Of a DNA stretch of 37,509 nucleotides, positions 251-37,509 are shown one piece after another. How positions within the stretch are numbered: the stretch's first letter is position 1; each line of letters begins with the position of its first letter. Under the pieces are notes generated by a model. That model was not told where the DNA came from. It did not search any database and was given only the letters and a program-made list of their open reading frames with translations. Origin of the DNA: Deltaproteobacteria bacterium (GTDB taxonomy: Bacteria > Desulfobacterota > DSM-4660 > Desulfatiglandales > Desulfatiglandaceae); the NCBI GenBank assembly GCA_019307945.1, contig JAFDIS010000029.1, positions 1 to 37,509 of the forward strand, given 5' to 3'. The position numbers were made by a program, and so were the translations under genes.

Positions 251-429
251 GAGAATGCATTTGGGTGCGAAGAACGCCCGCGGCTGATCCCGCCAGGGAG
301 GAGGGGAAGAGCACGAGGCAAACGCCGGGCCCGGGTTGGCTTGACCGTGATTCCGGGGGGTGAGAGCTGCTTGGAGGAAGGACGGGCAGGGGAAAAGTCA
401 CAAATCAAGATCTGACCCCCTCCCCCGTC

Positions 430-680
430 CTTGAAGTACGTTGCAGCGACTGAATCCGAAGCGCCTGTCTGCGTGCGGAGACGCACAGGCAGGCAACACC
501 GAAGATGCTGCAAAATCGGAAATCCCGGAGGGTTTCAAATTTTGGTGATCGAATGAAGACCCACGCTCCGCTTGGGCGGACCCCATCGGGTGGTGATTCA
601 GACAGCCTCATTGCAACCGATCTCTGTAGAAACAATGAGGAACCGTTCCTCATCAAAATTTGAAACGCTCAATTTGGGTT
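430..680 (-). repeat. Dispersed ~250-bp repeat, copy 1 (inverted partner at 32618-32978)
   Basis: This stretch matches 32619-32866 read on the opposite strand almost end to end. Shared blocks are CTTGAAGTACGT, the GCGCCTGTCTGC region, GGAAATCCCGGAGGGTTTCAA, GACCCACGCTCCGCTTGG, GGTGGTGATTCAGACAG, and the end CTCAATTTGGGTT (668-680). It is non-coding. The left side stops at about 430, whereas the other copy runs on to a second inverted end, so this copy may be truncated. Together with the element at 22-250 it fills the roughly 700 gene-free bases before the first gene; the short remainder (251-429) shows nothing recognisable. Confidence 0.8.
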
Positions 681-30966: not shown

Positions 30967-31201
30967 CGCGGGAAGGGGGGCGACGTGAGGCCGCGGGAGT
31001 CTCGCCCTTTTTGTCTATTCCGAAGGGATCGGTTGGAGGCCGCTCCGCCTTGAATATTAACTTTGGGATAGGGAAAATGCGCAAAATTAGTTCTTGCAAT
31101 TTCGCGTGAAATGACTTTCTATAAAAGAATCTAGAATAACGACATTTTGAATGCCTTGTTAAAGTCAGCCCGGCCCATTGAGGCTGGTGGGGAGTGAAAA
31201 A

Positions 31202-32590
31202 ATGATAGCCGGTAGGAAGTCCCCCAGGACAAAACGGCCCACCTTGCGGGCGGCGCGAACAGCCCTTCGGGCCCTTTGTGCCGCCCTGTTCCTTGGAACC
31301 TTTTGCGCATCGCCGGGGGTCTACGCCCAGGACCTCCTGACGCTCTACCGGCTCGGTCAAAAAAACGACCCTGAAATTCAACGTGCACGGTACGAACACA
31401 TGGCGAAAAGGGAGGCCATGAAACAGGCCATTGCCGGTTACCTCCCGGTTCTGACGGCCCAGGGCGAATACGTGGACACCTCTCAGGATATCGTGAGCAG
31501 CGACAACACGGTCTTTGCCAAGGGCGAAACCGATTTCAAGACCAAGACCTACACCCTGACCCTCACCCAGCCCCTCATCAATTATGCCTCCTTCATGCAG
31601 ATCAGCCAGGCCGGCGCCAAGGTAAGCCAGGCGAACATGACCTTCGAGGCGGCAAAGCAGGATCTCATGATCCGGGTGGCGGAGCGGTACCTGGCGGCGC
31701 TGGCGTCCAAGGACAACCTGGGCTTTTTACGGGCCGAGGAAACAGCCGACCGGGGGCATTACGAGCTGGCCAAGGCGAGGCACGCCATGGGCCTTGCCCC
31801 CATCACGGACCTTCACGACGCCAAGGCCCGCATGACCGAGGTGTCGGCCCGGGTCTTTGAGGCGGAAACGGTGTTGGACGACGCCAGGGAGGCACTTCGT
31901 GAGGTCTGTGGAGAGCATGTGGGTGATCTGGCCTCACTGAGACAGGAGGTCCCCTTGAAGGACCCCTCACCTGACGACATGAACCTTTGGATCAAAGGGG
32001 CACCGGATCGCAACCCCGAGGTGTTGGCCCAGCGCTTTGCGGTGGAGGCGGCGCGGCGAGAAGTAAGCCGTCAGAACGCGGGGCACTGGCCTACGGTGGA
32101 CCTGGTGGGCAGGCACAACAACCGTGACACGGACGGAAGCTTGTTTGGCGGCGGCAGCGAAGTGGAGACCACGGAGATCCTGGTCCAGGCCAATTTCACG
32201 CTTTTTCAGGGAGGGTATGTGCTTTCACGCGCACGGGAGGCGAAAAATCTCTTGCGGGCCGCCCAAAGGGAGCTTGAGAGGCTGGAGCGCTCCGTCAAGC
32301 GGCGGGTGAGGGCCGCTTTCCTGGGCGTGAAAAGCGCCATCAGCCGGGTAAAGGCGCTGGAAGAGTCGGTCAGGGCCCAGGAACTGACGCTGGATGCGAA
32401 AAAATACGGGTTCAAGTCGGGCCTTTATACCAGCCTGGCCGTGCTGGACGCCGAGCGTGATCTTTACCTTGCTAAACAAAAACTCTCCCAGGCGCGCTAC
32501 GACTACCTCCTCAACAGCCTGCGCCTGAAGCGCGCCGCCGGAATCTTGAAGGAGGAGGATTTGGAAGTAATAAACGGCTGGTTTCAGTGA
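31202..32590 (+). CDS. TolC-family outer-membrane efflux/secretion channel
   Basis: About 462 residues from the ATG at 31202, which has GGGGAG eight bases before it. A signal peptide spans residues 1-42, with a basic start, a hydrophobic ALRALCAALFLGTFCAS core and cleavage after VYA. Two outer-membrane efflux protein repeats follow: DLLTLYRLGQKNDPEIQRARYEH and the TLTQPLINYASFMQISQAGAKV segment, then NPEVLAQRFAVEAARREV and FTLFQGGYVLSRAREAKN. Long helical stretches fit the periplasmic coiled barrel. TolC-like channels work with an inner-membrane pump and an adaptor; neither is nearby, so the cargo is unknown. Confidence 0.88.
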   Translation: MIAGRKSPRTKRPTLRAARTALRALCAALFLGTFCASPGVYAQDLLTLYRLGQKNDPEIQRARYEHMAKREAMKQAIAGYLPVLTAQGEYVDTSQDIVSSDNTVFAKGETDFKTKTYTLTLTQPLINYASFMQISQAGAKVSQANMTFEAAKQDLMIRVAERYLAALASKDNLGFLRAEETADRGHYELAKARHAMGLAPITDLHDAKARMTEVSARVFEAETVLDDAREALREVCGEHVGDLASLRQEVPLKDPSPDDMNLWIKGAPDRNPEVLAQRFAVEAARREVSRQNAGHWPTVDLVGRHNNRDTDGSLFGGGSEVETTEILVQANFTLFQGGYVLSRAREAKNLLRAAQRELERLERSVKRRVRAAFLGVKSAISRVKALEESVRAQELTLDAKKYGFKSGLYTSLAVLDAERDLYLAKQKLSQARYDYLLNSLRLKRAAGILKEEDLEVINGWFQ

Positions 32591-33564
32591 GAAGCCGGGC
32601 CGAGCAGGTTTCCCTTCCCCAAATTGAGCGTTTCAAATTTTGATGAGGAACTGTTCCTCATTGTTTTTAGGGAGATCGCTTGGAATGGGGCTGTCTGAAT
32701 CACCACCCAACGGGGTTCACCTAAGCGGAGCGTGGGTCTTCGTTCGATCATCAAAAATTGAAACCCTCCGGGATTTCCGATTTTGCAGCATCTTTGGTGT
32801 TGCCTGCCTGTGCGTCTCCGCATGCAGACAGGCGCTTCGGATCCAGTCGCTGCGACGTACTTCAAGTACGTCTCACTCCTGAATCCTCGCGCGCCTTGCA
32901 CCTGCCTGCCGCAGGCAGGTCTGCCGCAAACTCGAAAGGCAGGTCTGCCGCAAACTCGAAAATAGCTCAATTTGGGTTCCAGAAACACGGCCTCGGGATC
33001 GGGGTTGTATCGGTAAGGGGCGATCTCCCGGGACCCCAACGCGCGGTAAAGGGACCTTGCAGCCTCCTGGGGCCCCTGGGTGTCAAGCCGCATGCTCTCG
33101 TACCCCGCACGTGCGGCCTCCTGGATGAGGTGTTCGCAGAGCCCCCTACCCATTCCTTTTCCGCGGAACCCAGGGTACACGTAAAGGCGCTTCATTTCGC
33201 AGACCCCATCCCCCCAGGACCTGAACCCTGCGCCTCCTGAAACCGCCCCGTCCGTTATGGCCAGGTAGAATCCCCCATCCGGGCGTCCGTAGTGGGATGC
33301 GAAGTGTTGGATCTCGGTATCGAGCCCCTGGAACGCGAGGTCCATGTCCAGCCACCGCACGTAGTCCGCCACCACCCCCAGCGCCCTTTGGTAATCAGCC
33401 GGGCTGCTACAGCGCAGGATTTCGGTCCGTGGCTCCCGTGCCTGGGGGTCTTGGGCCCATGATGCCTGCCCGGGTGTCCTGCTCCATTCCCGCCCCGGTT
33501 TCCAGGGGCGTTCCCCTTCATGACGCGCCTCCAGACCTCTTCCCAGCCGGGCGCGCTGAGACAA
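32584..33564 (-). CDS. GNAT acetyltransferase with a C-terminal tail supplied by a repeat insertion
   Basis: The core (32978-33564) is a GNAT N-acetyltransferase. VCEMKRLYVYPGFRGKGMGRGLCEHLIQEA carries the acetyl-CoA loop R-G-K-G-M-G-R-G, and ARAGYESMRLDT, SLYRALGSREIAPYRYNP complete the fold. At VFLE the frame enters the dispersed repeat: the codons for PKLS lie in its inverted end CCCAAATTGAGC. It then reads some 130 codons of repeat, ending at 32584 across the end of the tolC-like gene. This tail (with FRVCGRPAFRVCGRPA) is foreign. The core alone would be about 195 residues. The start is uncertain: the frame opens at a TTG (33564), and the first 45 residues are not family-like. Confidence 0.7.
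   Translation of the reverse strand: MSQRARLGRGLEARHEGERPWKPGREWSRTPGQASWAQDPQAREPRTEILRCSSPADYQRALGVVADYVRWLDMDLAFQGLDTEIQHFASHYGRPDGGFYLAITDGAVSGGAGFRSWGDGVCEMKRLYVYPGFRGKGMGRGLCEHLIQEAARAGYESMRLDTQGPQEAARSLYRALGSREIAPYRYNPDPEAVFLEPKLSYFRVCGRPAFRVCGRPACGRQVQGARGFRSETYLKYVAATGSEAPVCMRRRTGRQHQRCCKIGNPGGFQFLMIERRPTLRLGEPRWVVIQTAPFQAISLKTMRNSSSSKFETLNLGKGNLLGPASH
32618..32978 (+). repeat. Dispersed repeat, copy 2, with inverted ends
   Basis: The ends CCCAAATTGAG (32618-32628) and CTCAATTTGGG (32966-32976) are exact inverted repeats. 32619-32866 matches 430-680 on the other strand. The remaining part to 32978 is absent from that copy. It is non-coding, MITE-like, and sits between the tolC-like gene and the GNAT core, into whose 3' end it appears to have inserted. 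Confidence 0.8.
32914..32961. repeat. 24-bp direct tandem duplication
   Basis: The unit beginning GGCAGGTCTGCCGC and ending AAACTCGAAA occurs twice head to tail (32914-32937, 32938-32961). It lies within copy 2 of the dispersed repeat and contains the inverted CTGCC/GGCAG motif. Confidence 0.85.
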
Positions 33565-34679: not shown

Positions 34680-37432
34680 TTTTCAGTTCCCTCTTCGTAG
34701 GGACTTCCTGTGAAACAGTACGGGTCGGTGAGTCATTGAGTCTATGGGTCTATCTTTTCGTAGGGACTTCCTGTGAAACTCGACATCACGACCTTCCCCT
34801 GTCCATCGCACCGAACAAACTTTCAGTTCCCTCTTCGTAGGGACTTCCTGTGAAACCAGAAGAAAAATATCAAAGAGAAGTCATAGAACCACTTTCAGTT
34901 CCCTCTTCGTAGGGACTTCCTGTGAAACTCAATTCTGAGGATATTATTGAACATGAAAAACTAACTTTCAGTTCCCTCTTCGTAGGGACTTCCTGGGAAA
35001 CGCCTGTTCAAGAAGCGCTCGGCATCGTTCTACCCGGACTTTCAGTTCCCTCTTCGTAGGGACTTCCTGTGAAACTGAAAAACTGCGATATGCGTTATAT
35101 CGACTGCCAAAGCTTTCAGTTCCCTCTTCGTAGGGACTTCCTGTGAAACGGGGCTTATATCTCCTCCCCCAGGATTTCTTCCAACCTTTCAGTTCCCTCT
35201 TCGTAGGGACTTCCTGTGAAACTTTTTTCGGGCTCTCACAAAAGAGAAGACATAACGAACTTTCAGTTCCCTCTTCGTAGGGACTTCCTGTGAAACTCCT
35301 TCTCCTTCTCCTTCTCCTTCTCCTTCTCGTAACTTTCAGTTCCCTCTTCGTAGGGACTTCCTGTGAAACTAAAGAAGACCAGCTCCCATCGTTCGGCGTT
35401 AAACACTTTCAGTTCCCTCTTCGTAGGGACTTCCTGTGAAACCTGTTCTACCGCGATTTTCCATTCCGGGGTGTCCACTTTCAGTTCCCTCTTCGTAGGG
35501 ACTTCCTGTGAAACCTGTTGGTTTAAGCGGTACTATCTTGAGAAGATAATTCTTTCAGTTCCCTCTTCGTAGGGACTTCCTGTGAAACATCTTTAGTTGC
35601 CCTTCTTTGCGCTCCATCACCAGGCCTTTCAGTTCCCTCTTCGTAGGGACTTCCTGTGAAACGCCACCCGGTAGAGCGCTCCGTAGTCCAGTCCCAGCTT
35701 TCAGTTCCCTCTTCGTAGGGACTTCCTGTGAAACTGGTTTATAAGCTGAGTGATCCAAGTGGATTCTTGACTTTCAGTTCCCTCTTCGTAGGGACTTCCT
35801 GTGAAACTCCGGGGGAGAGAAAATAACTCCGCTCAGTCCCAAACCTTTCAGTTCCCTCTTCGTAGGGACTTCCTGTGAAACTTTTGCCCAGTCACACGCT
35901 GCGTTACTGCCGCCATACTTTCAGTTCCCTCTTCGTAGGGACTTCCTGTGAAACGGTTCCGAAACTGGTGATGAAGAGCCCGAAGAAATAGACTTTCAGT
36001 TCCCTCTTCGTAGGGACTTCCTGTGAAACTTCCCAGGCTCCAGGCGCATTGGCCTAAATCTATTTACTTTCAGTTCCCTCTTCGTAGGGACTTCCTGTGA
36101 AACTATCGCCGAGGGGATTTTTATGTTGGATCTGAAACTCTTTCAGTTCCCTCTTCGTAGGGACTTCCTGTGAAACCCAGGGCGGCCACATCCCCGGGAC
36201 CTTTCACGGGCCTTTCAGTTCCCTCTTCGTAGGGACTTCCTGTGAAACCGATTTGGCTTTCCCGGATCCGTAGCGGCAACATCGCTTTCAGTTCCCTCTT
36301 CGTAGGGACTTCCTGTGAAACCCACCTACAAGCCCCCGCCTGGGGGGATATATCAACACTTTCAGTTCCCTCTTCGTAGGGACTTCCTGTGAAACAGGTG
36401 GTCCACGACTTCGAACATATCCACCTTGAACACTTTCAGTTCCCTCTTCGTAGGGACTTCCTGTGAAACTTAATAAAGCTCTAGAACGCTCTAGGAGGGC
36501 TGTTTTATACCTTTCAGTTCCCTCTTCGTAGGGACTTCCTGTGAAACCTACGCCAAAAATGGTTTTGTGTTCCCTGAGTTCTATGCTTTCAGTTCCCTCT
36601 TCGTAGGGACTTCCTGTGAAACTTGGTTTCAAGAATAACTATCGACAGACTGGGTATGCTTTCAGTTCCCTCTTCGTAGGGACTTCCTGTGAAACTTCCG
36701 CCTGTGAAAGTAATAATTATCGGTAGCCAGTACTTTCAGTTCCCTCTTCGTAGGGACTTCCTGTGAAACCCTTCACGTCTCCTGCAAAGGAAAAGCCCCT
36801 TATTCCTTTCAGTTCCCTCTTCGTAGGGACTTCCTGTGAAACCGATCACCTGGTCACTGTTGCCGCATCCACCACGAGCCTTTCAGTTCCCTCTTCGTAG
36901 GGACTTCCTGTGAAACACCTCGAAGAGGATGAGTTGTATGAACTCGTTCTCGAACTTTCAGTTCCCTCTTCGTAGGGACTTCCTGTGAAACAATTCCAAT
37001 GCCATGTTTAAAGGCTAATCCACTCCTACTTTCAGTTCCCTCTTCGTAGGGACTTCCTGTGAAACCCCCGTCAACTACCGCTACCCCTGCCCCGACGCAG
37101 CGCCTTTCAGTTCCCTCTTCGTAGGGACTTCCTGTGAAACGGATAATGCGGTCATCAACATGGTGGCGGGCGTGATCACTTTCAGTTCCCTCTTCGTAGG
37201 GACTTCCTGTGAAACTCATCATCGCCAGACCATACCCTCAAAACACTGATCTTTCAGTTCCCTCTTCGTAGGGACTTCCTGTGAAACCCCCACGAATCTC
37301 GTGTATCGCAATAGGCACAACGTCTTTCAGTTCCCTCTTCGTAGGGACTTCCTGTGAAACGAGAATTGAGGCATTCGTCGCCCGCCTGGGTCAACCTTTC
37401 AGTTCCCTCTTCGTAGGGACTTCCTGTGAAAC
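34680..37432 (-). CRISPR. CRISPR array, 38 repeats of 37 bp and 37 spacers
   Basis: On the plus strand each repeat starts CTTTCAGTTCCC, continues TCTTCGTAGGGA and ends CTTCCTGTGAAAC. Repeats start at 34680, 34743, 34820, 34892, 34965 and so on to 37396. Spacers are mostly 33-40 bp. Inner arms TCCCT and AGGGA form a 5-bp stem with a 6-base loop. The minus-strand form begins GTTTCACAGG and ends GGGAACTGAAAG, like known repeats whose 8-base tag ends TGAAAG. The first repeat has a changed first base, the second has lost its first 11 or so bases to divergence, and the fifth has one substitution; the right-hand repeats are uniform. Decay at the left and the repeat form indicate minus-strand transcription with the newest spacers at the right. 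No cas gene is in the window. Type I or III cannot be decided from the repeat. Confidence 0.97.
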
Positions 37433-37509
37433 AGATAGGCAACCGGCCGAAATATTAGCACGATTTTCGCGGATCAGGCCAGTATTTTTCGCAAAGTGTT
37501 CTTCTGATC
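37433..37509 (-). promoter_or_regulatory. Probable start of the CRISPR leader
   Basis: Seventy-seven bases flank the last repeat. Read on the minus strand they contain GCGAAAA twice (in TTTGCGAAAAAT and CCGCGAAAATC) and a -10-like TAATAT about 20 bases before the first repeat. The A-rich, gene-free character fits a leader. The window ends before it can be seen whole. Confidence 0.5.

Follow-up and report, generated by a model that had tools for sequence, protein, structure and literature searches.

Bacterial MITEs are short, multicopy elements with terminal inverted repeats, a target duplication, no coding signal of their own and shorter forms, and REP palindromes are mobilised by the Y1 (RAYT) transposase. 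One report gives REP repeats a length of 20–40 bp (PMC3733652). In-frame fusions of the frames of intragenic MITEs are described in a review as not unusual, and as especially frequent for the RPEs of Rickettsia, which it reports as in-frame residents of many genes that share a conserved peptide (PMC10969869). Among the enterobacterial RU elements, the account of RU-1 in Delihas 2007 has this repeat joined to an Erwinia amidase gene, ECA3499, at the 3′ end, the normal stop having apparently been eliminated (PMC2759123). Here we describe a window of 37,509 nucleotides, the whole stretch of deltaproteobacterial DNA that was analysed, in which a short dispersed repeat similarly forms the end of an enzyme reading frame. 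The host genome (G000) comprises 4.16 Mb in 185 contigs and is 98.5% complete.

The open reading frame in question occupies 32584–33564 on the minus strand and is listed with 326 aa and the start codon TTG. Its residues 80–177 match the Pfam family Acetyltransf_1 (E 1.2e-16, 61.5 bits against a curated cut-off of 20.7), which makes it a member of the GNAT acetyltransferases. The GNAT core (32977–33447, minus strand, 157 codons) has coding-like codon usage and no internal stop or frameshift, and its 3′ end is cut by the repeat element. The preliminary description had the frame leaving the core exactly at the inverted end of the repeat, and this is borne out: GAA at 32979–32977 is the last GNAT codon, and from 32976 the frame reads the 12-bp terminal repeat CCCAAATTGAGC on the bottom strand as Pro-Lys-Leu-Ser (PKLS). 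This right-hand junction, 32976/32977, is a genuine element end. The tail with its stop runs over 32584–32976 (minus strand) and does have the 130 codons given in that description, although they do not all pass through the element, 119 lying within it and 11 beyond. The reported 24-bp tandem repeat encoding FRVCGRPA twice is likewise as described, with two copies that are 100% identical at 32913–32961, inside the element. This duplication preserves the frame and is missing from the other complete host copies that we read (L130, L131 and L139).

The element itself is a MITE-like, dispersed, palindromic repeat of 359 bp (32618–32976). CCCAAATTGAGC stands at both of its ends, on the plus strand at the left (32618–32629, flanking 5-mer CCTTC) and on the minus strand at the right (32965–32976, flanking 5-mer TTCCA on the top strand), as it does in L131 and L139, with one mismatch at one end of L130. 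Complete host copies measure 261–359 bp. The single-strand fold of the element lies well beyond that of shuffled sequences (z −7.2), and a search of 32400–33200 against Rfam matched no family up to E 1. On a codon-usage score trained on the 19 long ORFs of the window, the six frames of the element score between −0.35 and −0.12 per codon, and it contains no transposase gene. At least 46 BLAST segments of it occur in the host genome, a lower bound with 40 of 74 candidates scored, and a degenerate form of the 12-bp end (two degenerate positions) is found at 33 host sites against 0 for the reversed pattern, so the repeat is not a product of chance. At least 14 host contigs start or stop exactly within the element. 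A second, truncated copy in the window (426–678, minus strand, 253 nt, 92%) is inverted, with its left end at 678. Some copies also carry a 19-bp palindrome, CCTGCCTGCCGCAGGCAGG, which lies at 32901–32919 in the window and recurs in L139, L148 and L149; it is missing from the others and resembles a nested micro-insert. The minus-strand ORF at 710–1510, whose stop is 28 nt from the left end of the truncated copy, ends in PVPEPATMLLVGTGLLGLAGIRRKKMKKD, which we take to be a PEP-CTERM-like sorting signal.

Taken as a family, the element has a target duplication of fixed length, as in other MITEs, although not every copy shows it. We compared 16 right with 24 left host ends, allowing at most three mismatches in the end sequence; matching pairs were noticed by eye first, and all combinations were then tested. 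Six pairs, involving five right ends, match over exactly five bases, all of them across different contigs (C3/C81, C17/C69, C46/C184 or C166, C87/C27 and C105/C52), whereas the controls, over 45 shifts, averaged 0.6 such pairs and never exceeded 2. Matches over four bases are at the control level (2 versus 1.8) and there are none over six, from which we conclude that the target duplication is 5 bp. Pieces of the element, mostly short, are present in 29 of the 61 genomes searched, the host counted; none of the 61 is a same-genus relative. One of these genomes, G049, belongs to another family of the order and contains copies whose ends are of the same type. At 40 loci of relatives we collected end pairs spaced by under 700 bp and carrying no more than two mismatches between them, which yielded 15 distinct candidate copies; 14 are in G049 and one, L262, is in G047 (L237 was left out as a second reading of L164). 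A perfect 5-bp direct repeat flanks seven of the 15, all in G049, and eight are without one. Three end pairs in G049 (L249, L240 and L255) stand 80, 91 and 116 bp apart with perfect 5-bp duplications; deletion forms of the element thus also seem to be mobile.

The window copy resembles bacterial MITEs in being short and multicopy, with inverted ends, a family-wide target duplication, no coding signal and shorter forms, and it differs in that its autonomous parent was not found in the stretches read and its family has no name in the sources cited. Around the known ends at the 40 loci of relatives, no end pairs with a 5-bp duplication are spaced 700–4500 bp apart; a parent would be expected to carry a transposase flanked by CCYAAATTGAGC. 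Six further single host ends, extra sites of the degenerate 12-bp end, were inspected by eye, and at three of them (C25, C36 and C165) element sequence does not come next. A Y1 transposase was rejected as the mobiliser, the two Y1_Tnp matches being partial and both in open frames of 45 codons; with these, the 359-bp length and the 5-bp duplication of the family, the element does not belong with the REP/RAYT repeats. What is new here is one more MITE family, without a name in the sources compared, which may already be in print; two families within a single bacterial order are documented here as carrying it, with its 12-bp ends and 5-bp duplication.

The element cuts genes, as four ORFs abutting its ends, chosen by eye and scanned against profiles, are truncated there. 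A carboxyltransferase (L143) breaks off at profile position 423 of 493, the match to an AMP-binding enzyme starts at 316 of 384, an ammonium transporter begins at 283 of 399, and a kinase begins at 74 of 263 with its match stopping at 169; the copies beside the carboxyltransferase and the kinase lie at contig ends. The missing halves did not come to light: none of four host matches to the ammonium transporter covers profile positions 1–221, none of ten host matches to the carboxyltransferase is a lone C-terminal piece, and at L131 and L152, the latter an old, partial copy (69%), no missing gene half was seen by eye within 600 bp across the element. The four ammonium transporter matches lie at three host places (C174, C111 and C120), and all are C-terminal (profile positions 222–399); no N-terminal part was matched, even though the assembly is 98.5% complete.

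To locate the native end of the GNAT gene we aligned 84 homologues of 38–49% identity with a core query that ended three residues inside the element. Four came from the genome search, being the closest, the window itself aside, of 36 genomes with a match, with the weaker ones left out, and 80 were loci kept among at least 584 relatives. In 79 of the 84 a stop follows 0–10 residues from the aligned core end, placing the native stop within a few codons of the junction; four others extend 13–28 residues past it, and in L091 no stop occurs in the 40 residues kept. By eye the common ending is (F/Y)(M/L)ELxL, compared with FLE followed by element-derived PKL in the window, so about three final codons, together with the stop, have been replaced by the element. 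In the 40 residues after the core end, none of the homologues has the tail.

The 5′ side of the gene is also irregular. In 77 of the 84 homologues a possible start codon lies between −12 and +8 of the residue at which the core query begins, and none is in frame at these positions in the window. The sole in-frame start downstream of the last in-frame stop is the TTG at 33564, 43 codons before that residue, and the 39 codons upstream of the core (33448–33564, minus strand) score −0.20 per codon, as off-frame sequence does. The GNAT gene, without an ordinary start, may be dead, may use an unusual start or may contain a sequencing error.

On its other side the element is followed by an outer-membrane-efflux-like gene, TolC-like by eye (31178–32590, plus strand), which is convergent with the GNAT gene and has its stop 27 nt before the element. 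The two flanks of the window copy do not look like the two sides of one insertion. CCTTC and TTCCA share three matching bases (TTC) and no 5-bp match, and when the flanks are joined without the element the GNAT frame meets no stop for 129–130 codons and runs antisense to the neighbour. Both observations suggest that the left flank and the right junction probably do not stem from a single insertion. The missing duplication is suggestive rather than proof, since eight of the 15 copies in relatives also lack a perfect one; in the host, it is absent from all four complete copies (three matching bases in the window, two in L130, none in the others) and from all five same-copy pairs, the window copy included. 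No remainder of the native GNAT was recognised by eye past 19 left ends, so the original insertion has not been seen from its other side. The preliminary description treats the element as an insertion; at the window copy the missing duplication suggests that its two flanks do not belong to one and the same insertion. The flanks could have been separated by recombination among the copies, by a deletion adjoining the element or by misassembly, each of which fits.

Taken together, these data lead us to think it likely that a MITE cut off the last GNAT codons of a gene that was probably already failing, and that the tail is an accidental, passive read-through that has not been selected. A non-autonomous, palindromic MITE-like element with 12-bp terminal inverted repeats and a 5-bp duplication would have inserted in the last few GNAT codons. 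To judge by the sequence across the element, which does not resemble the second flank of that insertion, the final residues and stop would later have been parted from the gene, by recombination between copies, by an adjacent deletion or by a draft misjoin at the repeat. By chance the GNAT frame enters the only bottom-strand frame that is stop-free in this copy, giving a 130-codon tail on paper, presumably a passive sequence rather than a selected protein part, on a gene that has no ordinary start and is probably failing. Several observations count against this reading. A core free of stops and frameshifts, with coding-like usage, indicates a gene that was functional until recently or still is, and the location of the element, between convergent genes, is a harmless one. 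The tail frame is stop-free in the consensus of the other copies too, and the 24-bp duplication preserves it. The lack of a perfect duplication at eight copies in relatives, and of a GNAT remainder past the left ends, weighs on the same side.

The misjoin named among the three causes may also be considered on its own, and the two accounts overlap at this point. An artefact of assembly, with a GNAT-side and a TolC-like-side locus joined through a repeat that has tens of copies, is in our view a serious but lesser possibility for the junction across the element. The absent duplication would be expected of such a join, as would the contigs that break within the element and the gene halves not seen by eye across it at L131 and L152. 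Two contiguous host copies also have a right end that matches an end on another contig (C3:10577-10887, which contains an N gap, and C46:26144-26404, with two candidate partners); some copies that are contiguous in the assembly are thus not simple insertions. Against an artefact, the 24-bp duplication of the window copy and its six near-private bases might have let an assembler walk through it, although three of the six recur in one to three other copies, which weakens the point; in addition, neither window flank found a partner among the 16 right and 24 left host ends. Were the junction an artefact, the GNAT/element boundary at 32976 would stay as it is and only the exit of the tail would change.

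It is improbable, in our judgement, that a working GNAT has gained a new C-terminal extension from the element, with the tail translated and retained. All 119 element codons are open, the 24-bp duplication is in frame and the core is intact, and extensions of this kind have been proposed for RPE and RU elements in the parts of the literature that treat them (PMC2759123, PMC10969869). The open frame is less remarkable than it appears, in that among 2000 dinucleotide shuffles of the element the tail frame was open in 43 and any of the six frames in 405. Nor is it unique to the window copy, as the other copies have a consensus without stops in the same frame (PKLSDFRVCGR...FETLNL); 10 of 27 other aligned copies, many of them partial, have a stop in register (nine TGA and one TAG). 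The core scores +0.24 per codon and the tail −0.18, compared with an average of +0.37 for 593 in-frame windows of tail length from the training ORFs, of which 24 come down to the value of the tail. For off-frame windows the average is −0.32, and the tail is equalled or exceeded by 38% of them. The core lies under the in-frame mean, with 20% of in-frame windows no higher, but exceeds 98% of the off-frame ones. By codon position, the six near-private changes are at 1, 2, 1, 3, 1 and 3, with no concentration at third positions, a number too small for a test, and they give no sign of constraint. The absence of the tail from all 84 homologues and of an ordinary start codon from the gene also speaks against a kept extension.

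A search with the tail in 85 genomes of the order gave matches in five, the host counted. Nearly all host matches and most of those in G049 fall on element copies already listed; open frames as long as 217 codons contain several of the host matches. Apart from a few matches in G014, G022 and G047, neither this search nor the 84 homologues turned up the same tail without the element ends, the finding that had been named beforehand as decisive against capture of the repeat. Of the two outcomes put forward in the preliminary description, damage to the gene at its 3′ end is the one favoured, by the homologue ends near the junction, the off-frame-like usage of the tail and the stop-free joined flanks; the other, mobile DNA turned protein-coding, gains no positive support from a tail seen in no homologue, with stops in other copies and no third-position bias.

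The resemblance to the RU elements lies in a short, non-autonomous mobile repeat in frame at the 3′ end of an enzyme gene, and the differences in sequence, in length (127, 168 and 103 bp for RU-1, RU-2 and RU-3) and in host group (PMC2759123); here, moreover, there is a single case, with an off-frame-like tail on a gene without an ordinary start. With RPEs the element shares a palindromic repeat within protein-coding genes and an in-frame read-through (PMC10969869, in the section on these repeats). It differs from an RPE-type coding element, for which open in-frame insertion recurs, in the stops of 10 of 27 copies and in the two frame-0 entries of recognisable genes that were seen, GNAT and the L143 carboxyltransferase; the latter enters through the other element end, loses part of its domain and stops 26 codons into the element. 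The GNAT case is a further example of an in-frame element tail, with weaker signs of function than its precedents. We find it very doubtful that the one bottom-strand frame of the family, open in the consensus, supplies ready-made C-terminal tails, with GNAT as a young functional case in which ELxL has become EPKL followed by a 127-residue tail with many arginines. It is most unlikely that the element is a non-mobile, terminator- or REP-like structural repeat at gene 3′ ends, where the GNAT gene evolved to end: the strong fold agrees with this, as do the nine of 31 ends that follow the stop of a crudely called gene at a distance of 2–139 nt, but at 16 of the 31 ends the closest called gene points away from the element (at 15, toward it), the ends inside four recognisable genes indicate insertion, and the 5-bp target duplications, which do so too, largely refute it.

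The preferred reading, a gene end lost to a MITE, illustrates how repeats of this kind truncate genes and leave draft genomes with long, spurious C-terminal tails. Matching 5-bp flanks on different contigs offer a practical check, as they suggest which contig ends may go together and which of the contiguous copies are hybrids, and could improve assembly. Elsewhere in the window, the last 2.8 kb (34680–37509) hold a CRISPR array of 37–38 repeats (CTTTCAGTTCCCTCTTCGTAGGGACTTCCTGTGAAAC), one spacer of which, near 35296–35328, is a CTCCTT microsatellite.
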